Assembly: GCA_028874995.1 (NCBI GenBank)
Contig: JAPPGM010000132.1
Location: forward strand, 18,845-55,006
Reading direction: 5' to 3'
DNA from: Gemmatimonadota bacterium
Lineage (GTDB): Bacteria > Gemmatimonadota > Gemmatimonadetes > Longimicrobiales > Gaopeijiaceae
DNA: 36,162 nt
The notes beneath the pieces were generated by a model. It saw nothing but the letters and a program-made list of their open reading frames with translations, ran no database searches and had not been told where the DNA came from. A program made the translations under genes and the position numbers. Shown here one piece after another: positions 9,942 to 22,302 of the stretch (positions are counted from its first letter, which is position 1; every line of letters begins with the position of its first letter).

Positions 9942-11813
9942 ATGCGCAACTTCCCCTCTTCTCCCAGGTCAGCCCACGCACACCGCAACATTCGGGCACC
10001 GGGCGCCGCTGGCCGCAGATCGGCCCTCCGCGCCCGGCACCACCGCCTCGGCGCGGCTGCCGGCCTGGCGCCTCGCCGCTCTCGCTGCTCGCGTGGGTTT
10101 GTCCACGGACTCCTCGCCGCCCTTCTCGTCGCTTCGGTCTCCACCTCCCCCCCGCTCACCGCCCAGACAACCCGGCACTACGACCTCCTCATCCGCGGCG
10201 GCAGAATCCTGGACGGAACCGGCAACCCCTGGTTCCGCGCGGACATAGGGGTGCGCGACGGCCGCATCGTTGCGCTAGGCATGCTCACGGGCGCCACCGC
10301 CGACCGGGTTGTCGACGCGACGGGCCGCTACGTGTCCCCCGGCTTCATCGACATCCATTCGCACGCGGACGACGGGGGAAGCGGCCGCCGCGCGAGTATC
10401 CGCAATGACTCGACCCACCGCAAGGCGGCGCCCAACGTCGTGTCGCAGGGAGCCACTACCGTCGTCGTCAACCAGGACGGGCGATCGCCGTGGCCCATCG
10501 CCGAACAGCGCGCGACGCTGGAACGCCAGGGCGTGGGACCCAACGTGATGTTGATGGTGGGCCACGGGACGGTGCGGCGCATGGCCATGGGCGACGACTT
10601 CCGGCGGGCCGCGACGTCCGGCGAGACCGCGCGCATGGCGGCGCTGGTGCGGCAGGCGCTGGAAGAGGGCGCAGTCGGGATCTCGGCGGGGCTCGAATAC
10701 GTGCCGGGGCGCTGGAGCACGACCGACGAACTGGTGGCCCTGGTCGCGGAGCTCGCCCCGTACGACGGCGTGTACATCTCGCACGAACGGGCCGAAGGGG
10801 CGGACCCGATGTGGTACCTGCCCAGCCAGCACGAGGGAACTCCCCCCACCCTGCAGGACGCCGTGGCCGAGACCATCGAGATCGGGCGCCGCACCGGCGT
10901 GCGCGTCGTCGCGTCGCATATCAAGGCGAAGGGCGTGGGCTATTGGGGGCAGAGCGCCTCGGCGATCGAGATGATCCAGCAGGCCCGGGATGAAGGCGTG
11001 CGCGTCTGGGCGGACCAGTACCCGTACCCGACCAGCGGTACCGACGGCCGCACCGTGCTGATCCCGCGCTGGGCCCTCGACGACGAGGACGCCGCGAGCG
11101 CCGCTGATGCCCGCCCACCCGCCGACATGCTGGAGATCAGGCTCCGGGATCCCGAGACCGCGGCCCTCATCCGCAGCGACATCACCCACGAAATCGGGCG
11201 CCGGGGCGGCGTGAACCGGATCGTCGTCTTCGAGCATCCCAACGAGGAGTACGTGGGCAAGAATCTCGGCGAGATCGCGGCCGAGCGCGGGGAGAACCCG
11301 ATCGAGACCGCCATCGCGCTGCAGTTGGAGGGCGACCGAACGCGGCCCGGCGGCGGCCGCTTCCGCAGCTTCTCGATGTCCGAGGACGACGTGGAGAACT
11401 ATGCGGGGCAGCCGTGGGTGGCAACCGCGTCGGACGGCGGGATCGCGTGGCCGGGCGACGGTCCCGTGCATCCTCGCTTCTACGGCACCTTCCCGCGCAA
11501 GATCCGCCACTATGCGCTCAACGTGGGCGCCCTTTCGCTGGAGTCGGCAATCCGGGCGCAGACCTCGCTGCCTGCGCGCATCATGGGTCTCACCGACCGG
11601 GGCGAGATCCGCGAAGGCTACTGGGCGGACCTGGTCGTCTTCGACCTCGAGACCATCACCGACCAGGCCACTTTCGAGCAGCCGCACCAACACTCGGCGG
11701 GGATCGATCATGTGCTGGTGAACGGGGAGTTCGTGGTGGACGAGGGGCGGATCGTGATGGCCCTGCCCGGGAAGGTGCTCGTGCCGCGAAACGGGGGACG
11801 GCCGACGAGTTGA
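9942..11813 (+). CDS. Secreted amidohydrolase, N-acyl-D-amino-acid deacylase-like
   Basis: The family removes acyl groups from D-amino acids or acts on related amides with a zinc centre in a TIM barrel. The protein has a composite small beta-domain (HYDLLIRGGRILDGTGNPWFRADIGVRDGRI split at both ends of the barrel), the metal motif IDIHSHAD, and GAVGISAGLEYVPGRWSTTDEL. It continues with YISHERAEG, VVASHIKAKG, TASDGGIAWPGDGPVHPRFYGTFPR and the C-terminal return GLTDRGEIREGYWADLVVFD. All are hallmarks of the D-aminoacylase group. A hydrophobic stretch FVHGLLAALLVASVSTSPPLTAQ ends like a signal peptide, but about 50 arginine-rich residues precede it and I find no better in-frame ATG, GTG or TTG; the true start may be non-standard. 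The exact substrate is unknown; peptidoglycan or D-amino-acid scavenging is possible. Confidence 0.88.
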   Translation: MRNFPSSPRSAHAHRNIRAPGAAGRRSALRARHHRLGAAAGLAPRRSRCSRGFVHGLLAALLVASVSTSPPLTAQTTRHYDLLIRGGRILDGTGNPWFRADIGVRDGRIVALGMLTGATADRVVDATGRYVSPGFIDIHSHADDGGSGRRASIRNDSTHRKAAPNVVSQGATTVVVNQDGRSPWPIAEQRATLERQGVGPNVMLMVGHGTVRRMAMGDDFRRAATSGETARMAALVRQALEEGAVGISAGLEYVPGRWSTTDELVALVAELAPYDGVYISHERAEGADPMWYLPSQHEGTPPTLQDAVAETIEIGRRTGVRVVASHIKAKGVGYWGQSASAIEMIQQARDEGVRVWADQYPYPTSGTDGRTVLIPRWALDDEDAASAADARPPADMLEIRLRDPETAALIRSDITHEIGRRGGVNRIVVFEHPNEEYVGKNLGEIAAERGENPIETAIALQLEGDRTRPGGGRFRSFSMSEDDVENYAGQPWVATASDGGIAWPGDGPVHPRFYGTFPRKIRHYALNVGALSLESAIRAQTSLPARIMGLTDRGEIREGYWADLVVFDLETITDQATFEQPHQHSAGIDHVLVNGEFVVDEGRIVMALPGKVLVPRNGGRPTS

Positions 11814-12099: not shown

Positions 12100-15039
12100 T
12101 CAGAACCGCGTCCTGACCGACAAGAGAAACCTCCTCGGCTGCGGGAGCCCCATGAACGGCCTGGAACCGAAGTCGCCGGCGTAGTACTTCTTGCTCGGGT
12201 CGTTGCAGTTGCAGTTGTCCCACCAGTGCAGGTTGTACCCCGAGAGGGTGACGGTCGTTCGTTTCAGTCCGATACGCCCTGCCAGGCCCTCCGGAACGGC
12301 ATACGACACCGACACCTCCTGCAGCCGAATGTGGTCTCGCTTGTCGACCGGGTAGGCCGTCGAATGGTAGTCTGCCACCGAGTCGCTCCTGTAGGTCGCC
12401 GACCCGTCCGCGCCAAGATGTACGAGATACTCGTCGTAGCCGCCCTCACGCACACCGTACGCCCTTTCATCATTGACCATCATCGCACCCATCTCGCCCC
12501 TCAGCTGGAACGCCACTCGCAGGTCGTCGCCGATCTGGAAGCTGTTGAAGATCGAGCCCATGTGCACGGGCTGAATCGGGCCATGTCTGAACTGGTGTTC
12601 GGTCCGGATGTGCTTGTTGGCATCCCGATCGTAACCGGCAATCCCATGGTGCCAAACGTTCCCAAGGGATTCACCTACAAACCAGCCGTTCAGCTGCGCG
12701 GCACGCCGCCACCCGACATGCTCCCAAGTCCCGTCCCCTCTCCGTTCATAGAGGGGCATGGAATCGTCGGCGGCGGTGTCGCCCAGGCCGGTGATCCGGT
12801 TCCGGTTCCACTCGTACGTCAGGTTCGAATTCCAGCGGAAGCCGGGCGTGTCGATCAGCCACGCCCGCACAACCGCCTCGATGCCGCGGTTCATGATCTC
12901 GCAGCAGTTCTCGAGTCTTCCGGTCAAGCCCCCGGGGCGGTGCCTGTAGACGGTGAACAGTGCGTTGAGCACTCGCGCGTCGTAGTACGTGAACTCGACC
13001 CCGATCCTGTCGCTCAGGAGCCCGAGATCGAGCCCGGTCTCGAACTCGCGCTTGTTCTCAGGGTCTATTTCGTACCTGGACGGAAGTGACCACCCGTCCC
13101 CTCCCGGGACCCGGGCAGTCGCTTTGAGGGGGAGCTTCCCGGCCATGCCGACGGCGCCACGTACCTTCAGGTTCGAAATCGGAGCGGGTAGAACCGAGCT
13201 TGGCACGCTGTAGCCAATGGCGGCTTTCGGGTACAACTGCGGACCCACATCGTCACCGAAGGCCGAGCGGCCGTCCACGCGAACGGCGGTCGTAAGGGAA
13301 AGGTCCTCGCCGAGGTCCAGGCGGTTCATGGCGAAAACCCCGCGGCCGCGCCTCTCGAACATGCCTTCGTCCGCGACGGTCTCCTCGGCTTCATGCAGGG
13401 TGGATACCGGTCCGTCGTAGCCGCGTCCCGTGGCCATCGCCGTGGATATGTCGTCCCAATACGCCTGCGCACCCACGGAGACGGAGCCACTCAGACCCCC
13501 CATGCCGGCGAGATCCTCGTAGTCGTAGGTCGACAGGAAATCGACCGTGAACTTCCCCGAATACCGGGACCCGACGTTCCTTTCCCCCTGGTCGCCGAGG
13601 TACGTGTAGTAGCGTCCCCAGGGGAGGGTGCGGGTCTTCCGTTCCGACACCCGGTCGGCCCCGATCGTGAGTCTGTGCGTAAAGTTGGGCGTCGCCTGGT
13701 AGTTGACCTGGACTCGCCCGGTCCACCGGTCGGCTTCCGAAACGGTCCTGATCGCCTGGGCGTCGGCCACGGCTACTTCCTGACTCAGCCCGCCGCCGTA
13801 CGGCTCCTCCTCGGTAGCCTCGAACGGGTTGCTCAGCATTGCATTCGTGAAGACGCCCAACCAGTTGTTGCCGGTCTGAAGCGGCCGGATCCTGTTGCGC
13901 ACAAAACCCGAGGCCAAATCGACCGAGAGATTGTCGGCCGCCGACCAGTTGAGGTTGACCCTCAGGTTGGCGCGGGTCTGGTCGCTGGGCTTTACCGAAC
14001 CCTCTTCGTAGGTCAGCCCGCCGGCCGCGAAGTAGGTCACGTCCCGGCCGCCCCCGTAAATCGTCAGATCGTAGTTGTTGACGATTCCGTTCTCGATCAG
14101 GTGTTCGTTCGGATCCCATGCGGCGAAGCCGGAAGGCCCGGTGAAGTTCGGACGCAGCCGGGTGGGCAGGTTCGCCCGGAGCCGGTTGAAACCCATCCCG
14201 GTGCTGACGGTAACGGTGGGCGGGGTGTTGTTCCGGCCTCGCTTCGTGAACACCTGGATTACGCCGGCCGACCCCTCGGAGCCGAAGAGCGCCGCCGCCG
14301 CCGGACCCTTGAGGACCTCGACGCGGTCGATCTCTTCGGGGTTCAGGTCGGATAGCCGGTCTTCGCCCGCGCCGCCGGAGAAAAAGCAACAGGTGACGCC
14401 CTCCATCCCGCCCCATTCCAGCTTCTCGGTGTCAACCCGCACGCCGTCGATCAACACCAGCGGACGCTGGCGCGTGACTCCGAACGAGTCCGTGCCGCGG
14501 ATGCGGAGTTCGCGGCCCGAGCCGATCCCGCCGTTGGTCCCGGTGGAGCGGAGGCCGGGAATGCGTCCTTCGAGTGCGTGGCTGAAGCCGTCGACCGGGA
14601 AATCCTCCCCGATCCTGTCGAAGGCGATGGTCGGCAGCGAGGTGCCGATCTTGCGCCGCTCCGACGGACCCGCCCCCGCCGTGACCGGCTGGTCGAGGTC
14701 AACTCCGGAGACTTCCAGCCGGAAGTCCGCTTCCACGGTACTCCCGTGCGTGACGGTCACCTCCCGCTCCCGGGTCCCGTACCCGAAGATCACGACCTTG
14801 ACGGTCTGCGTGCCCGCGGGGACGCTGCCGAGCCGGTAGCGCCCGTCGGAAGCGGTCAGCGCGCTGATCCGGGTACCCGCGAGACTGACGCGGGCTCCGT
14901 CGAGCGGCTGGCCGGTGGTGGCGTCCGTGACCACTCCGGTCAGGGCGCCCGTCTGCGCGGCAAGGCCGCTGGCTCCACTCGCGACGATCGTGAGTGAGAG
15001 GGCGGCGATCGCGCCGGCGATACAGTAGCGATGGGACAT
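12100..15039 (-). CDS. SusC/RagA-type TonB-linked outer-membrane receptor
   Basis: This is a complete 979-residue receptor. A signal peptide ends near GLAAQ (residue 29). A carboxypeptidase-regulatory-like domain follows (31-110; GVVTDATTGQPLDGARVSL). The plug holds RIRGTDSF, PLVLIDGVRVD and IDRVEVLKGPAAAALFGSEGSAGVIQVFTKRG (to about 268), and the long barrel ends FLLSVRTRF with a terminal phenylalanine. AAAGGAGA lies just before the ATG and fixes the start. SusC proteins normally work with a SusD lipoprotein to import glycans or peptides, but none is present on either side. Oddities are a double cysteine in the plug (C217, C218) and a CNCN cluster near the C-terminus, which could bind metal or form disulfides. 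The substrate is unknown. The 3' end faces the amidohydrolase gene. Confidence 0.93.
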   Translation of the reverse strand: MSHRYCIAGAIAALSLTIVASGASGLAAQTGALTGVVTDATTGQPLDGARVSLAGTRISALTASDGRYRLGSVPAGTQTVKVVIFGYGTREREVTVTHGSTVEADFRLEVSGVDLDQPVTAGAGPSERRKIGTSLPTIAFDRIGEDFPVDGFSHALEGRIPGLRSTGTNGGIGSGRELRIRGTDSFGVTRQRPLVLIDGVRVDTEKLEWGGMEGVTCCFFSGGAGEDRLSDLNPEEIDRVEVLKGPAAAALFGSEGSAGVIQVFTKRGRNNTPPTVTVSTGMGFNRLRANLPTRLRPNFTGPSGFAAWDPNEHLIENGIVNNYDLTIYGGGRDVTYFAAGGLTYEEGSVKPSDQTRANLRVNLNWSAADNLSVDLASGFVRNRIRPLQTGNNWLGVFTNAMLSNPFEATEEEPYGGGLSQEVAVADAQAIRTVSEADRWTGRVQVNYQATPNFTHRLTIGADRVSERKTRTLPWGRYYTYLGDQGERNVGSRYSGKFTVDFLSTYDYEDLAGMGGLSGSVSVGAQAYWDDISTAMATGRGYDGPVSTLHEAEETVADEGMFERRGRGVFAMNRLDLGEDLSLTTAVRVDGRSAFGDDVGPQLYPKAAIGYSVPSSVLPAPISNLKVRGAVGMAGKLPLKATARVPGGDGWSLPSRYEIDPENKREFETGLDLGLLSDRIGVEFTYYDARVLNALFTVYRHRPGGLTGRLENCCEIMNRGIEAVVRAWLIDTPGFRWNSNLTYEWNRNRITGLGDTAADDSMPLYERRGDGTWEHVGWRRAAQLNGWFVGESLGNVWHHGIAGYDRDANKHIRTEHQFRHGPIQPVHMGSIFNSFQIGDDLRVAFQLRGEMGAMMVNDERAYGVREGGYDEYLVHLGADGSATYRSDSVADYHSTAYPVDKRDHIRLQEVSVSYAVPEGLAGRIGLKRTTVTLSGYNLHWWDNCNCNDPSKKYYAGDFGSRPFMGLPQPRRFLLSVRTRF

Positions 15040-15403: not shown

Positions 15404-16774
15404 ATGCACCCACCCCACCACCGCTTCGCCATCGCGCCGATCCTGGCGGTCGCCGTCCTGACCGCGTGCGGCGACCCCGATCCGGTCGTCATCGAGCCCG
15501 CCCCCACCACCATCGAAGTGGTCGCGGGAGACGGCCAGCGGGCCGTTCAGGGTCTCCAGCTCGAGGACTCCGTGATTGTGCGGGTGCTCGACCAGGAGGG
15601 GCGAACCCTCTCCGGCACGGAGATCACGTTCACCCCCGGGGCGGGTCACGGCCAGGTCGACTCCGCTTCGGCCACCACCGGCGGCGACGGCCGGGCCACC
15701 GCCTTCTGGACCCTCGGCTCCGATCCCGGCAATCAGACGCTGGCCGTCGCTGCGGGCGAGGCCACCGCCAGCGTCGGTGCGACGGCGCTGGACCTCGAGG
15801 CGGAATTGGACGTGGTTTTCGCCCCCCCCTCACAGGCCGAGATCGACGCGGTTGGAGCCGATTGGGCCGCTCGCGACGTCTCCGCCACCGGCGTGCGGGT
15901 TGAACTCACCGAGGCACTGTCGCTGGTGGGATCTCCCGCCACCCTGAGAATCGTTTCGCATACGGTCACCGGAGCCCGCCACTACGGAGCGATTGTGGTT
16001 CCCGACGGGGCATCCGCGGAGAGCCTGCACGTCCTGACGTACCTGCACGGTGGCGACGGGGGCGTTTCGGTGGCAGACCTGCAGTTCGTCGCCCTGCCGC
16101 TGGGCGAGTTGCGCGACAGCTTCGTGTACGTGGTTCCTTCCTTTCGCAGCGAACCGCTCCGGCACGACGGGCAGAGCTGGATCTCGGAAGGCACGTCGAG
16201 CCCGTGGGACTACGACGTGGATGATGCGATCGCACTCATGACCGTCGCCTTCGAAACCACGCCGGAGGCCAGACCCGGCGGCTACAGCGTCATCGGCGGC
16301 AGCCGGGGCGCCGGGGTGGCCCTGCTCGCCGGGGCCCGGGACGAGCGGATCCGGAGAATCGTCGGTTTCTACGGCCCCACCGACTTCTACGACGACTGGG
16401 TGCGGGAGATCGTGCGCGAGGCGGCGCTCCGAATGCCGCGCAGCCTACCCGGGGTCACCCACCTCGACTCCACGGTGGTGCAGCCCTTCATACGGGGTGA
16501 CCTCGGGCCCGCCGAGGTTCGACTGGAACTGGTGCGCCGCTCGTCGGTCCTGTTCGCGGCCGGCCTGCCGGCGGTCCAGCTCCACCACGGCACGATCGAC
16601 CAGGTCGTCTCCGTGTCGCAGGCCGAATCCATGATCCGCACCATGGAGGCGCTGGGACGCGGGCCGCCCGACTTCGAGGCGTACATCTACGAGGGCGGGG
16701 GGCACGACTTCCTCTCCTTGCAGGAGGCCATCCAGCGCGCCGTCGAGTTCGTGTCGCGGGAGTTCGGCGGATAG
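15404..16774 (+). CDS. Lipoprotein alpha/beta hydrolase with Ig-like domain
   Basis: The 456-residue protein starts with a lipoprotein signal (lipobox LTAC, C22), so it is probably membrane-anchored in the envelope. Residues about 35-128 form a bacterial Ig-like (Big_1-like) domain, with VLDQEGRTLSGTEITFTPGAG and DGRATAFWTLG. After a linker comes an alpha/beta-hydrolase fold: LTYLHGGDGG (211-220) supplies the oxyanion region, GGSRG (298-302) carries the nucleophile S300, D399 in HGTID is the likely acid, and H434 in GGGHDF completes the triad. This layout fits dienelactone-hydrolase/prolyl-oligopeptidase-type esterases or peptidases; the substrate is unknown. The ATG at 15404 is directly followed by the signal peptide. 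It ends facing the amidohydrolase pair on the other strand. Confidence 0.88.
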   Translation: MHPPHHRFAIAPILAVAVLTACGDPDPVVIEPAPTTIEVVAGDGQRAVQGLQLEDSVIVRVLDQEGRTLSGTEITFTPGAGHGQVDSASATTGGDGRATAFWTLGSDPGNQTLAVAAGEATASVGATALDLEAELDVVFAPPSQAEIDAVGADWAARDVSATGVRVELTEALSLVGSPATLRIVSHTVTGARHYGAIVVPDGASAESLHVLTYLHGGDGGVSVADLQFVALPLGELRDSFVYVVPSFRSEPLRHDGQSWISEGTSSPWDYDVDDAIALMTVAFETTPEARPGGYSVIGGSRGAGVALLAGARDERIRRIVGFYGPTDFYDDWVREIVREAALRMPRSLPGVTHLDSTVVQPFIRGDLGPAEVRLELVRRSSVLFAAGLPAVQLHHGTIDQVVSVSQAESMIRTMEALGRGPPDFEAYIYEGGGHDFLSLQEAIQRAVEFVSREFGG

Positions 16775-16817: not shown

Positions 16818-18191
16818 CTACATGATCACCCGCCGCATGTATTGCCGAACCTTCTCCATGTACTTCTCGAAGAAGTACTTCTGGATGTCCATCATGTCGA
16901 GTTCGCGGCCCTGGATGTAGGCCTGCTCGATGTCGCTGGTCATGTCGAGCGGCGTTCCGGTCGTGATCAGGAAGGTCGCCTGCTTGCCCGGCTCCAGGGA
17001 GCCGACGCGGTCGTCGAGCCCGAGGAACCGCGCCGGGTTGATCGTGACCGCCTTCAGCGCCTCTTCCTCGGGAAGCCCGAAGGCGACCGCCACACCCGCT
17101 TCGAAGGGCAGCCGGTTCGAGTACAGCGACCCCGAGCCGCCCGCGATCGCGAAGCGCACGCCCGCCTCGTGCAGGCGCGCCGGCATCGAGTATGCGCCGT
17201 CGTAGCCCTCGTATTGCCGGCCGGGTCCGGCCATCGTCGAGGTCAGGATCACCGGTATGTCCTCGGCGACCAGGCGGTCGGCGACATGGATGGCGTCCCG
17301 TCCGCCGCGGATGACGATGCGGAGATCCTCCTCCTGCGCCCAGGTGATGGCGTCGCTGATCTGCGCCGCGCCGTCGGCCGCGACCACGACGGGGAGATCC
17401 CCGTCGATGACCGGGATCATCGCGGCGTAGCGCGAGTCGCTGCGCACCTCCTCGCCGGCGGCGACCGCGTCGCGATAGGCCCGCGCTTCCGCGAAGAAGT
17501 CCTTCAGCTGCTGTACCTGCTCCTCGTAGCTCGGCGGATCCTCCCGCGGGCCGAACCTGAAGCCGGGGAACCCGCGGAAGCCGCGGCGGTTGGGGTTCGG
17601 CCAGTTCACGTTGAGTGCCGTTGCCGACTGCATCGACATCTCCTCCCAGCTCCACCCCTCCAGGGCCATCGCGGAAGACATGCCGGAGACGAGTCCGCCG
17701 CCGGGAGTCGTGAGCGTGGTGAGCACGCCGGCCGAGCGCGTCGTGCCGATATGGCGGCTCTCGGCGTTCACCGCGACGTCCGCGCGCACGTTCGGATTGA
17801 AGTCGCCCAGTTCGTTGATGTCGTTGGATACGTCGACCGCGCCGATCTCGGCGATCCCCACCGTGCTGTAGGCGTCGATGAGACCGGGGTAGATGTGTTT
17901 CCCCGTGGCGTCGACCACGCGGGCCCCGGCCGGGATGTCCACGTCGGTACCGATCGCGGTGATCAACCCGTTCTCCAGGAGGATCGTCCCGTTTTCGATG
18001 ACACCGCTGGTGACGGTGTGGATGGTGGCGCCGACCAGCGCAACCGGCTCGGATTGCGGGGGCACCGTCATTCGCACCTGGGCTCCCAGGATCGCCGGCG
18101 CCATCGCCCACACGACCGCCACCACCGCCGTGGCCCTGCGCCCGACCCCCGGGAGGGTTCTCTTCGTCGCTCTTCGCTGTGTCGTCGTCAT
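16818..18191 (-). CDS. Secreted amidohydrolase-fold protein lacking metal ligands
   Basis: The 457-residue protein has an N-terminal signal-type segment (TAVVAVVWAMAPAILGAQ) and the usual amidohydrolase beta-domain (VALVGATIHTVTSGVIENGTI). The C-terminal return, VTINPARFLGLDDRVGSLEPGKQATFLI, is also typical of the family. The catalytic positions are changed: the usual H-x-H after PGLID is Y108-S-T110, the mid-barrel histidine before the ADG loop is alanine (about A271), and the final metal aspartate region reads AGGSGS. I infer a pseudoenzyme or scaffold. Its ATG overlaps the stop of the upstream 1002-residue amidohydrolase gene (ATGA, 18188-18191), so the two are translationally coupled and may form a complex. 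The 170-250 region is rich in W, N, P and R (NVNWPNPNRRGFRGFPGFRFG). Confidence 0.88.
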   Translation of the reverse strand: MTTTQRRATKRTLPGVGRRATAVVAVVWAMAPAILGAQVRMTVPPQSEPVALVGATIHTVTSGVIENGTILLENGLITAIGTDVDIPAGARVVDATGKHIYPGLIDAYSTVGIAEIGAVDVSNDINELGDFNPNVRADVAVNAESRHIGTTRSAGVLTTLTTPGGGLVSGMSSAMALEGWSWEEMSMQSATALNVNWPNPNRRGFRGFPGFRFGPREDPPSYEEQVQQLKDFFAEARAYRDAVAAGEEVRSDSRYAAMIPVIDGDLPVVVAADGAAQISDAITWAQEEDLRIVIRGGRDAIHVADRLVAEDIPVILTSTMAGPGRQYEGYDGAYSMPARLHEAGVRFAIAGGSGSLYSNRLPFEAGVAVAFGLPEEEALKAVTINPARFLGLDDRVGSLEPGKQATFLITTGTPLDMTSDIEQAYIQGRELDMMDIQKYFFEKYMEKVRQYMRRVIM

Positions 18192-21100
18192 CGGTTGGTC
18201 TCCGTCTCTGCATTCCGGCCGCCGCCGCCCTCGATGGACAGGATGGCCTGGATGAGTTGTCCGCGTTCCTGCGCGATCCGGTCCCGCATGGCCGCGTCCT
18301 CCTCGAGCGAGAAGTAGCGGCGGCCATCGACCCACGTCTGCTCGGCCCGCGTGAACTGCGAGAGCGGGTCGCCGCTCCAGATCACGAAATCGCCGTCCTT
18401 GCCCGCCTCCAGCGAGCCGACCCGGTCGTCGAGCGCCATCGCCCGCGCCGCCCCGATGGTCACCGTGGACAGCGCCTGCTCGGGCGTCAGCCCCGTGCGC
18501 AACAGCTTGCCCGCCTCCCAGTTCATCCGGCTGGCGATCTGGCTGTTGTCGGAGTGCAGCGAGGTCACGACTCCGGCCTCGATCAGGATCCGGGCGTTGT
18601 ACGCGGTCGCGTCGTAGGCCTCGAGCTTGAAGGCGCCCCAGTCGCTCCACACGACCGCAGCCACACCGGAAGCCGCGAGCTCCGGCGCGATCTTGTATGC
18701 CTCGACGCCGTGCTGAAGCGCCTGGACCCGGAAGCCGAACTCCTCCGCCAGACGGATGAGCGCGAGGAACTCGTCCGCGCGATAACCGTGCGAGGAGATG
18801 AGCAGCTCCTGGTTCAGGATGTCGAGGATCGCCTCCATGCGCAGATCGCGCCGAGGGGGAAGTCCCTCCCCCGTCTCCTCCCACCGCCGCCACTCACGCT
18901 CGTAGTCGCGCGCGGCCATGAAGTGATCGCGGATGATCTCCTGCGTTCCCATGCGTGTGTCGGGGTAGCGTCCCTGGCGCCGCTTCGGGTTCTCGCCCAG
19001 GGCGAACTTCACCGTCCGCGGCGCGTTCTCCAGCTTGAGGTCCTCGGGCAGCGAGCCCCAGCGCATCTTCACGAAGACGTTCTCGCCCCCGATCGGGTTC
19101 GCGGAACCGTGCTTGATGTGTGCGGTGGTGAGCCCGCCGGCCAACTGCCGGTACATCCAGATGTTGTTGTGGGTGACGACGTCGCCCATCCGCACCTCGG
19201 GAACGATCGCGAAGCCGCTCTCGTTCACGGCGCTCACGCCCGAATGGATGTGCGGGTCGATCATTCCCGGCGTGACGTGCTTGCCCGCGGCGTCGATCTC
19301 GACCGCGCCGCGAGGCGCATCGAGGTCCGTGCCGACCGCTTCAACCGTCCCGGCCCGAACCAGGAGGTCGGCGCCTTCCAGTATGCCCCGCGGGCCCATG
19401 GTCCAGACGGTGGCGTTGCGTACCACCACCGCGGCGGGCTGCTCCGGGATCGAGGACCGGCCGTAGTCCATCATCGGGCGGATGAACGGCAGGTCGATCT
19501 CGGGCACGTCCATCGCCACGGTTCCGCGCTCCCGGCCCTCGAAGCCCTCGGTGCGGGTGCCGCGGAAGGACGGGTCCGCCCCGTTCGGGAGCGATGTCCA
19601 TCCGTAGAACTCGTCGCCCCGCACCGAGCCCGACAGGAGCGCCATGCCCTGATAGCCGAGCACTTCGCCGTTGAAGCGGGCGTCGATCCTCCCGGTCTCC
19701 GCGACAGCCCGCGCCGAAGCGAGATCGATCCGTGCGCCGCCCGGAAGCTCGGGGCCGGTGCTAGCTATGTCGAGGTAGCCGCGCAGCCGGTTCAACGAAC
19801 CCTCAAGCACCAGGACGGCGTCGAAGCCCCACTCGTCATCCGAAGCGATCTCCCACGTGCCCCTGGGATCGATCTGGGCCGGGCGGGTGATCCCGTAGAC
19901 TCTTCCCCGCACCCAAACATCGCGGACCGTGGCCTCCTCGGTCAGCAGGTCGCCCTCCGACACGATCAGGTTGGCCACCTTGCCCTCGGCGATGGTCCCG
20001 TGGGTGCGATCGATTCCGAGCCAGGCGGCGGGTGTCGTGGTGAGCGCGGCCAGAGCGTCGTCCGTCGAGAGCCCCCGCGCGACAGCGATCCGCAGATTGG
20101 GCAGAAACTCGTTCAGCGACGACAGGCCGTCCGTCGTGATCGCGAAGCCGACCCCGGCATCCGCCAGCTGAGCCGGGCTGGTCGGCGCCAGGTACCAGTG
20201 GCGCAGGCCGGCAAGCGAGGCATCGAGCGCCGCCCCCGGATAACCCACGTCGGGGGCGTCCGGGAAATCCAGGGGAACGATCAACGGTTCGCTCCGGTTC
20301 CGGAGCAGGTCGATGATCCGGTATTCGTTGCCGTTGCCGCGGTACCAGGCCTCAAGCCCGAACTCCGACGCCAGGGTGTGGGCCCGGAGGTACTCCTCCT
20401 CGCCGCCGGTCTCGAAGACGACCGGCTGGCTGCCCTGCACGACATCCTCGAGCGCCGCGAGGGCCTCGCTCGTCTCCGGGGGGAGGAAGGCGCGCCCGCT
20501 CGATTCATAGGCGTCCCACGCGCGAATGTACCAGTCCGCGTCCATGAGCGTCTGCTTCATGAGCGCGATCGTGCCCATCGCGGAGTTCGGGTACGACCCG
20601 CCGAGCTCGAACGAGCGCCGGAAACCGATCGACTGCGCGATATCGGGCCGCAGCACCCGCTCTCGAACGCCTTCGTCCCCCAGGCTGACCAGCGAGGCCG
20701 TGCCCCGGAAGATCCCCTCCTTCGGAACCACCAGCGCCGCGCCGAAGCCCTGCGAGCGGAGCGCCGCCCGGCGTTCTTCGTCGTCGGCCAGGTTCCGGGT
20801 GGTGGAGAACCAGGCCCGCACCTGCGGGTTCCAGTGCGTGGGCCCGATGTCCCCGCCCTCCGGCACCGCGTCCATGTCCAGATCGGCGTGCGCGTCAATG
20901 AAGCCCGGGTAGACCGTGAGCCCGTCGAGATCCCATACCCGCGCCCCGGGCGGCGCGTCCGTGCCTCGCCCGACCGACTGGATGAGGCCGTCGCGGATCA
21001 CGATCGTTGCGTTGTCCAGGACCTGGCCCGGCCCGGTCACGACCCTGGCTCCCACCAGGGCGTGATAGCCCGTGCCGTTGTCGCGCATTCCCTCGACCGG

Positions 21101-21196
21101 CTGGGTCCGGCTCGCCTGCTGAGCCGCGACGCCCGTCGCCAGGACAGACGCAAGACCCAGCGTGACAGGACCCAGCGTAAACGGTGTCGCTTTCAC
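18188..21196 (-). CDS. Secreted tandem amidohydrolase, two domains
   Basis: The 1002-residue protein has a signal peptide (to about AAQ, residue 26) and two amidohydrolase units. Unit one (about 45-435) starts ALVGARVVTGPGQVLDNATI and keeps only H103 of the metal motif (DAHAD instead of HxH); its mid-barrel histidine is replaced in VVFETGG (259-265), although TTDG (354-357) survives. Unit two (about 585-960) looks intact: DPHIH (H649, H651), KFALGENPKR (K730 may be the bridging lysine), SSH (H803), LQHG (H829) and HSDN (D883). So the second half is the probable enzyme; related secreted proteins act on amides or peptides, and the substrate here is unknown. The start is a GTG at 21194-21196 with AAGGGGGT a few bases upstream. 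The stop overlaps the next gene as ATGA. Confidence 0.92.
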   Translation of the reverse strand: MKATPFTLGPVTLGLASVLATGVAAQQASRTQPVEGMRDNGTGYHALVGARVVTGPGQVLDNATIVIRDGLIQSVGRGTDAPPGARVWDLDGLTVYPGFIDAHADLDMDAVPEGGDIGPTHWNPQVRAWFSTTRNLADDEERRAALRSQGFGAALVVPKEGIFRGTASLVSLGDEGVRERVLRPDIAQSIGFRRSFELGGSYPNSAMGTIALMKQTLMDADWYIRAWDAYESSGRAFLPPETSEALAALEDVVQGSQPVVFETGGEEEYLRAHTLASEFGLEAWYRGNGNEYRIIDLLRNRSEPLIVPLDFPDAPDVGYPGAALDASLAGLRHWYLAPTSPAQLADAGVGFAITTDGLSSLNEFLPNLRIAVARGLSTDDALAALTTTPAAWLGIDRTHGTIAEGKVANLIVSEGDLLTEEATVRDVWVRGRVYGITRPAQIDPRGTWEIASDDEWGFDAVLVLEGSLNRLRGYLDIASTGPELPGGARIDLASARAVAETGRIDARFNGEVLGYQGMALLSGSVRGDEFYGWTSLPNGADPSFRGTRTEGFEGRERGTVAMDVPEIDLPFIRPMMDYGRSSIPEQPAAVVVRNATVWTMGPRGILEGADLLVRAGTVEAVGTDLDAPRGAVEIDAAGKHVTPGMIDPHIHSGVSAVNESGFAIVPEVRMGDVVTHNNIWMYRQLAGGLTTAHIKHGSANPIGGENVFVKMRWGSLPEDLKLENAPRTVKFALGENPKRRQGRYPDTRMGTQEIIRDHFMAARDYEREWRRWEETGEGLPPRRDLRMEAILDILNQELLISSHGYRADEFLALIRLAEEFGFRVQALQHGVEAYKIAPELAASGVAAVVWSDWGAFKLEAYDATAYNARILIEAGVVTSLHSDNSQIASRMNWEAGKLLRTGLTPEQALSTVTIGAARAMALDDRVGSLEAGKDGDFVIWSGDPLSQFTRAEQTWVDGRRYFSLEEDAAMRDRIAQERGQLIQAILSIEGGGGRNAETETNR

Positions 21197-21333: not shown

Positions 21334-21777
21334 CTACGGCGCGCGGCGCTCCTCCACCCGCACCGTCACCAGGTCGTTCGCACGGTACTGCCGATGCCGC
21401 ACCGACGCGGCGTAGTGCGACAGCAGCCGAAGCGACATCTCCCGCGCGTCGGCGGGCACGCCGCCTTCCCGAATCATCCCCATCTCCTCCTCGAGGTTCG
21501 CCCCCTGCGGCGCCGCCAGAAAGTCGATCACCGCACCCTTCCCGTCGTTGCGCGCAGCCACCCGGAGCCTTCGCGCGCCCCCGGCGTCTTCCCCCTCGCG
21601 CTCCACCAGGCTCATCAGGGTCTCTTCTCCCGCCGCACACAACCGTCGGGTCGCTTCCTCGTCCCACTTCATGCGCGCCGCGAATTCCTCAAGGAACTCC
21701 TCGAGAACCCGCCGGACGCCGGCATCCAGGGACATCTCGACGTTCCCGCGCCGTGACAGCCACCTTCCGAGGCTCAC
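21334..21777 (-). CDS. Small protein, degenerate GHKL/SpoIIAB-like domain, paralogue 2
   Basis: This is a 147-residue soluble protein. Residues 15-140 align by eye along their whole length with the upstream neighbour: MKWDEEATRRLCAAGEETLMSLV, then IDFLAAPQGANLEEEMGMI, then MSLRLLSHYAASVRHRQYRANDLVTVRV. The helix with E-E-x-x-M-x-L, followed by beta strands and the late LRLL-HYA segment, recalls SpoIIAB-type histidine-kinase-like ATPases, but the N-box asparagine is serine and no clear G-boxes are seen. I therefore infer a non-catalytic or nucleotide-sensing fold. From memory, a similar domain forms the cytoplasmic tail of some NCS2 nucleobase permeases; this is unverified. The start is a GTG at 21775-21777; an ATG at 21735 is possible. 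It begins 12 bases after the upstream stop. Confidence 0.75.
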   Translation of the reverse strand: MSLGRWLSRRGNVEMSLDAGVRRVLEEFLEEFAARMKWDEEATRRLCAAGEETLMSLVEREGEDAGGARRLRVAARNDGKGAVIDFLAAPQGANLEEEMGMIREGGVPADAREMSLRLLSHYAASVRHRQYRANDLVTVRVEERRAP

Positions 21778-21789
21778 GAACCGCGACCC

Positions 21790-22302
21790 CTACCTCGACC
21801 CCTTGACCCGCACGGTCAGCAGGTCGATCGCGTGGTACTGGCGGTGGCTCACCGAAGAGGCGTAGTGGCGCAGGAGCCGCAGTGACAGGTCGCGGCCGGT
21901 CGCGGGGGTGTCCCGGTCTCTGATGAGCCCCATCTGTTCCTCCAGATTGGTCCCCTGGGGCGCGGCCATGAACTCCATTTCGGCCGCGTCGGCATCGCGC
22001 CGGACGGCCACGCGCAACTGCCGGTGGCCGGAGTCGGCAACACCTTCGTCCTGGCGGACCAGGCTCATGAAGGCTTCTTCCGCGGCGGAGCACAGACGCT
22101 CGGTGGAGTCGTCGTTCCATTTCATCTTGGTGGCGAAGTCGCGCAGGAAGGCGTCGAGCCTTGGGCGCACGCCGACTTCCAGCTCCATGTCGATGTTCTG
22201 GCGGCTCGACCTCCACTTGCCCCACCCGAAGAAGACGGTGACGAGGACGTACAGGATCACTACGACGGCGCCGATGCCGATGGCCAGCCACAACAGGCTC
22301 AC
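21790..22302 (-). CDS. Membrane-anchored degenerate GHKL/SpoIIAB-like protein, paralogue 1
   Basis: The 170-residue protein opens with one transmembrane helix (LWLAIGIGAVVVILYVLVTVFFGWG, about 4-28), followed by a basic linker (KWRSSRQN). Its cytoplasmic domain is clearly related to the next gene downstream: MKWNDDSTERLCSAAEEAFMSLV, EFMAAPQGTNLEEQMGLI, and LSLRLLRHYASSVSHRQYHAIDLLTVRV. The pair therefore arose by tandem duplication, with gain or loss of the anchor. The strong conservation of SV-HRQY-A-DL-TVRV at the end suggests a functional surface. I do not recognise a named family with certainty and assign no reaction. A good promoter candidate (22465-22493) lies upstream, so the two genes are likely a small operon, perhaps running on into the amidohydrolases 137 bases downstream. 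Confidence 0.8.
   Translation of the reverse strand: MSLLWLAIGIGAVVVILYVLVTVFFGWGKWRSSRQNIDMELEVGVRPRLDAFLRDFATKMKWNDDSTERLCSAAEEAFMSLVRQDEGVADSGHRQLRVAVRRDADAAEMEFMAAPQGTNLEEQMGLIRDRDTPATGRDLSLRLLRHYASSVSHRQYHAIDLLTVRVKGSR

Follow-up and report, generated by a model that had tools for sequence, protein, structure and literature searches.

It is known that catalytically dead members of the amidohydrolase superfamily can assist a partner chain and that a dead paralogue can activate its living twin. In Pseudomonas aeruginosa, aspartate transcarbamoylase is reported to need a pseudo-dihydroorotase, a dead chain of this superfamily, for its activity (PMC7053772), and in Trypanosoma the dead paralogue prozyme is reported to activate the living AdoMet decarboxylase paralogue in a complex (PMC5201418). 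A third report deals with a different group of secreted amidohydrolases, PF07969 (PMC13081902). Searches of the open-licence literature gave us no publication on a trio of amidohydrolase domains of which one is live and two are dead.

Here, we describe such a trio, encoded by two genes in a stretch of 36,162 nucleotides (the window) from a Gemmatimonadota bacterium (contig JAPPGM010000132.1 of assembly GCA_028874995.1). We consider it likely that its products, P0001 and P0002, form an obligate and probably exported hetero-assembly, in which D2 would provide the sole metal centre, D1 and P2 would be pseudoenzyme subunits and a loop of P2 would perhaps act in trans.

Gene pair and domain layout

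The first-pass annotation of the window had read three amidohydrolase domains in two genes with an ATGA overlap, and its coordinates, protein lengths and overlap all stand (Table 1). Both proteins score above the Pfam PF01979 cut-off of 25 bits, P0001 with 103.7 and P0002 with 44.9 bits. The nearest solved relative of D2 is 3ooq from Thermotoga maritima MSB8 (Z 43.5, 1.9 Å, 367 residues; the next entry scores 23.8), which we take to be TM0814, and the same entry is nearest to P0002. The structure title of 3ooq names no activity.

Table 1. Features of the gene pair, in positions of the window
Feature	Positions	Strand	Remarks
P0001	18188..21196	-	1002 aa, GTG start; D1, beta linker, D2
P0002	16818..18191	-	457 aa; single pseudo-amidohydrolase domain P2
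ATGA	18188..18191	-	P0001 stop overlapping P0002 start
D1, pseudo-amidohydrolase domain of P0001	19886..21061	-	residues about 46-437
Beta-strand linker domain between D1 and D2	19442..19885	-	residues about 438-585; from secondary structure of the model
D2, predicted catalytic amidohydrolase domain of P0001	18302..19432	-	residues about 589-965; 3ooq E 5e-58
P2 domain of P0002	16896..18044	-	residues about 50-432; 3ooq E 9e-39 over 52-431
HxH of D2, H649-I-H651	19244..19252	-	
K730 of D2, invariant lysine	19007..19009	-	172/172 D2
H803 of D2	18788..18790	-	
H829 of D2	18710..18712	-	
D883 of D2	18548..18550	-	
Y108-S109-T110 of P2, at the HxH place	17862..17870	-	
Acidic loop of P2, E115...D124..E127.G129	17805..17849	-	E115, D124 and E127 each in 165/166 P2

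Amide or peptide bonds are the default substrate of the amidohydrolase superfamily. A named activity for either protein was considered and rejected, every NCBIfam equivalog among the top 25 per protein lying far under its cut-off; the imidazolonepropionase HutI model (TIGR01224) reached 97.5 bits against a cut-off of 298.15, and the Xaa-Pro dipeptidase model (NF051886) 100.3 bits against 500.

A further amidohydrolase, which belongs to PF07969 instead, is encoded 5 kb away from the trio (9942-11813, plus strand). Downstream of the trio are a SusC/RagA-like TonB-dependent receptor (12100-15039, minus strand; below the NCBI cut-off) and a gene with weak Peptidase_S9 and Ig-like matches (15404-16774, plus strand). 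Upstream of P0001, two adjacent small proteins (21334-21777 and 21790-22302, both minus strand) resemble tandem copies by eye, and neither matches a Pfam family at E 0.001.

Distribution, arrangement and phylogeny of the domains

We collected 182 loci from 11 phyla, comprising 102 from the window's genome and phylum (100 regions around P0002 matches and two from its own genome) and 80 named loci, which are the best 80 of 517 matches to a profile of active domains. The 80 named loci belong to Bacteroidota (31), Planctomycetota (17), Acidobacteriota (10), Gemmatimonadota (5), Verrucomicrobiota (4), Pseudomonadota (4), Balneolota (2), Ignavibacteriota (2) and, with one each, Fidelibacterota, Krumholzibacteriota and Armatimonadota; two are unplaced. 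L117, with one domain at a contig edge, was dropped from the first count.

Domains of at least 100 bits were counted, and arrangements are written with an equals sign for one open frame from stop to stop and a slash for separate genes. In this set of 182 loci, including the best 80 of 517, the window's form D1=D2/P2 occurs 123 times, D1/D2/P2 26 times and D1/D2=P2 seven times. All three domains share a frame (D1=D2=P2) in two loci, L166 and L180, and one locus has D2=P2/D1 (L200). D1=D2 stands without P2 in six loci, and nine hold pairs of an active A adjoining a pseudo B (A/B pairs, see below). D2/P2 is seen in five loci, where D2 lies no more than 1.3 kb from the locus start, D1 is in pieces in two, and in one the only domain is a P2 at a contig edge. 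Another 30 short loci, drawn separately from the phylum of genome G202, gave D1/D2=P2 (15), D1=D2=P2 (8), D1=D2 (2) and D2/P2 (1); of the remaining four, two hold tandem B-like genes and two are solos. Two loci from that phylum, L247 and L249, carry three tandem amidohydrolase-like genes, most of which lack full ligands by eye; another expansion of dead copies is possible there.

Since the phylum regions were chosen through a P0002 match, the rate of P2 absence can be read only from the 80 named loci and from counts over 200 genomes of the window's phylum. Of the named loci, which were retrieved by their active domain and are the best 80 of 517, 74 contain P2, once as a fragment at a contig end. 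The genomes of the remaining six all have P2-profile matches elsewhere (E 1e-115 to 9e-149), and these unlinked genes are P2 by profile. Matched synthesis through the ATGA overlap, which the first-pass annotation had proposed, may occur and would be non-essential, because P2 lies away from D1=D2 in these six genomes. P0002 itself has a match at E<=1e-20 in 173 of the 200 genomes. At E<=1e-75, the P2 profile finds 163 of them and the D2 profile 171, and all 163 lie among the 171 (overlap read by eye). Eight genomes of the phylum are active-only at this threshold. Four were opened, the others being G027, G083, G094 and G194, and in all four a P2- or B-type domain lies beside D2. Two show D1/D2=P2 and a third D1=D2 with P2 next to it, P2 falling into two stretches in all three; in the fourth, the D1, D2 and B-like genes are separate. 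The partner at L275, from an opened genome, scores best as B and not as P2. Active and dead homologues are co-inherited, as in enzymes with a dead-paralogue partner of the prozyme type.

A tree of 102 domains from 28 three-domain loci (the window's phylum and seven named phyla) and the nine A/B pairs, built by a quick method with no bootstrap and a midpoint root, places D1, D2 and P2 each on one side of a branch, with SH-aLRT values of 100, 99 and 97. In this tree the active domains of eight of the nine A/B pairs stand next to D2, and B falls outside the P2 clade. Matching clades are expected from a shared operon and common descent as well, which tells against taking them as a mark of hetero-assembly.

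Another account of the locus is that the domains are ordinary tandem duplicates in one operon with no physical interaction, and homologous neighbours in one operon are indeed commonplace. We hold this to be very improbable in view of the fusions D1=D2, D2=P2 and D1=D2=P2, of the presence of P2 in six of six genomes where it is unlinked, and of the single clade per domain across the window's phylum and seven named phyla.

Metal ligands and selection

The six ligand places of D2 in P0001 are H649, H651, K730, H803, H829 and D883, which confirms the histidines and aspartate first assigned to the last domain of P0001. K730 (motif KFALGEN) and K710 are both invariant, and by analogy with the superfamily K730 is the probable bridging (carboxylated) lysine. 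Among the 182 loci, including the best 80 of 517 matches, the full six-ligand set is present in 172 of 172 D2 domains, 0 of 168 D1 and 0 of 166 P2; these counts omit fragments below 150 bits (the P2 of L189 and one D1 piece of L164) and loci L222-L249. D1 and P2 each retain at most two of the six ligands and HxH in no case. Chance is ruled out, because every D2 keeps all six whereas no D1 or P2 keeps more than two.

At the corresponding places D1 has H103, D105, S189, E262, G287 and D356. Its HxD (H103-A-D105) had been recognised earlier, but the accompanying claim that it lost the remaining ligands is incorrect, since D356 occupies the Asp position. P2 has Y108, T110, N194, A271, G296 and G352, so that YST stands in place of HxH and the other ligands are gone too, just as first described. 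Orthologues of the 457-residue protein bearing HxH had been named as a result that would refute the idea of a complex with two pseudoenzyme domains, and none is found among the 166 P2.

In eight comparisons with near relatives, dN/dS was 0.09-0.17 for P2, 0.07-0.11 for D2 and 0.09-0.17 for D1; P2 is constrained by purifying selection like D2. Such values, near 0.1, with intact frames and the recurrence of the same kinds of substitution across many genomes, lead us to reject sequencing or frame errors and decaying pseudogenes as the origin of the ligand-poor domains. The window offers no instance in favour of that explanation, the probability of which is negligible; L114 has an in-frame stop between two D1 pieces.

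The selection on D1 and P2 would also suit a different explanation, namely that each of the two is an independent enzyme, using an altered metal site or metal-free chemistry, and that the locus encodes separate activities. Among the 61 D1 domains of the window's nearer relatives (loci below L100), 33 have H/D/E/D and 15 have H/D/Q/D, and this recurrence (48 of 61) likewise speaks for a function of their own. Against it, the ligand places of P2 vary widely (Y, N, G, F, V, H or M at the first-His place), and the H829 place is Gly in 152 of 168 D1 and 152 of 166 P2. Furthermore, the conservation of P2 sits in the E-D-E loop and the fold and not at the old metal site, its most conserved own residues including E115, D124, E127, R152, P163 and P198. 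We regard separate enzymes as improbable. The recurrent D1 set, H/D/E(or Q)/D, is also that of the window (19886-21061) and could represent either a vestige or an alternative metal site.

Solo relatives and the acidic loop

Solo chains related to the trio comprise 3ooq and eleven more (from Acetoanaerobium, Nonomuraea, Cytobacillus, Monoglobus and others). All 12 have the six ligands and a 15-16-residue loop after HxH in one chain, and within this loop the Asp and the last Glu are present in 12 of 12 and the first Glu in 8 of 12. At the same place, D2 has only 7-8 residues (172 of 172, including loci from the best 80 of 517), and P2 has 15-18 residues with a near-invariant E-D-E set (Table 1). 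The metal site has persisted in D2 and the loop in P2, each domain having lost the other feature. Neither is of the 3ooq type, in which the site and a 15-16-residue E..D.NE loop lie in one chain. Only the three-domain loci show this reciprocity strictly, as A of the A/B pairs retains the Asp.

A P2-profile search of two solo genomes gave no other full-length match. For solos L260-L264, the flank seen is about 1.5 kb or less and an unseen partner is possible. Solo relatives were found in none of 298 genomes of the window's phylum at E<=1e-75, a search with no positive control within the phylum.

The loop also bears on whether D1 and P2 are scaffold only, giving a stable exported oligomer and placing the active domain while leaving catalysis unaffected. 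The natural fusions and the co-occurrence agree with a scaffold, and the conserved loop of P2 might serve as a contact patch. Yet the loop is short in every D2 and the matching P2 residues are near-invariant, which hints, suggestively only, at shared work near the active site. A pure scaffold thus seems to us rather unlikely.

Active/pseudo pairs

The A/B pairs are like the trio in that an active amidohydrolase lies beside a pseudo partner: all ligands are present in 9 of 9 A and 0 of 9 B. They are unlike it in having two domains and no D1, in the loop Asp that A retains (9 of 9) and in the position of B outside the P2 clade. The first loop Glu is found in 8 of 9 B and 0 of 9 A.

The window's own genome holds a second active/pseudo locus (L009; G000:C30:4115-6690), where B has MSY at the HxH place. 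On a Qipengyuania citrea plasmid, an A/B pair (L267, 3779-6564) is flanked by genes for a peptide MFS transporter and an FKBP prolyl isomerase, and its A and B genes overlap by 4 bases. A peptide-transporter context was considered as a substrate clue and rejected, PF00854 being absent from the pair's contig in nine other genomes with A/B pairs.

Predicted structures and export

The model of P0001 alone is confident (pLDDT 88.5, pTM 0.85; built on 54 of 60 fused D1=D2 rows), but its score is not specific to the interface between D1 and D2. The natural fusion D2=P2 of L150 was modelled with pLDDT 79.7 and pTM 0.52, its D2 half being backed by six rows only; the mutual placement of the two halves is not confident, and the model confirms no D2-P2 interface. 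An alignment with D2-only rows added was dropped, its low identities revealing P2 rows aligned onto D2. The worst-predicted parts of the L150 model include residues 565-577, which correspond to the P2 E-D-E loop, and 82-88, the N-E loop of D2. An invariant yet unplaced P2 loop would fit partner contact in the model; the shallow alignment could also cause it.

By eye, P0001 has an apparent export signal at residues 1-25 and P0002 at about 18-37. By a crude count, 83% of 168 D1-first and 90% of 157 P2-first frames show a hydrophobic stretch ahead of the domain, but only 3 of 9 B do. In 7 of 11 solo frames, the domain begins no later than residue 23, leaving little room for an export signal. The secretion claimed in the first-pass annotation is probable, judging by these N-termini, inspected by eye, and by the crude hydrophobicity count. 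Because trio frames mostly have a hydrophobic stretch and 7 of 11 solos have little room for one, the sequences suggest that a move to the cell envelope accompanied the split of a solo ancestor.

A proposed assembly

In the hetero-assembly that we favour, D2 alone would carry the metal centre and act as the catalyst, probably hydrolysing an amide or peptide bond with two metals (His-x-His, Lys, His, His, Asp). The places of identical neighbours in a presumed homo-oligomeric, TM0814-like ancestor would have been taken by D1 and P2, which would hold D2 in its active form and on which activity may depend. P2 would stabilise or complete the D2 site, perhaps by offering the ancestral E...D..E loop to D2 in trans. 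We infer the physical complex, the export and the substrate class as steps of this proposal.

That the dead copies are conserved almost as carefully as the live one suggests that the three domains act as one machine. The earlier idea that an active domain forms a complex with two pseudoenzyme domains is now strongly supported at the sequence level by conservation, by co-occurrence and by natural fusions in several orders. More tentatively, and with less than even confidence, we suggest that the working site spans the D2-P2 interface, drawing its metals from D2 and its loop from P2, that D1 is a second dead subunit and that this arrangement arose once and now spans at least 11 phyla.

Two dead domains and one live domain have been retained through deep divergence, and 172 active domains, together with fusions, pairs and solos, are available for comparison. 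They form a natural series for studying the passage from a homo-oligomer to an obligate hetero-complex and the residues that a dead copy cannot afford to lose. On the practical side, such genes tend to be annotated simply as 'amidohydrolase', so enzymes may be over-counted, and the active gene expressed alone may yield an inactive protein.

Comparison with known systems

AdoMet decarboxylase and prozyme have a fold other than that of the amidohydrolases. The Trypanosoma system has one dead partner and is eukaryotic (PMC5201418), whereas the present one has two dead domains and is bacterial. In the P. aeruginosa system, the active partner is a transcarbamoylase (PMC7053772); in the trio, the active partner is itself homologous to the dead chains, which contribute two domains. 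Finally, compared with 3ooq, D2 has the same ligands and P2 the same loop, but in 3ooq both are found in one chain.
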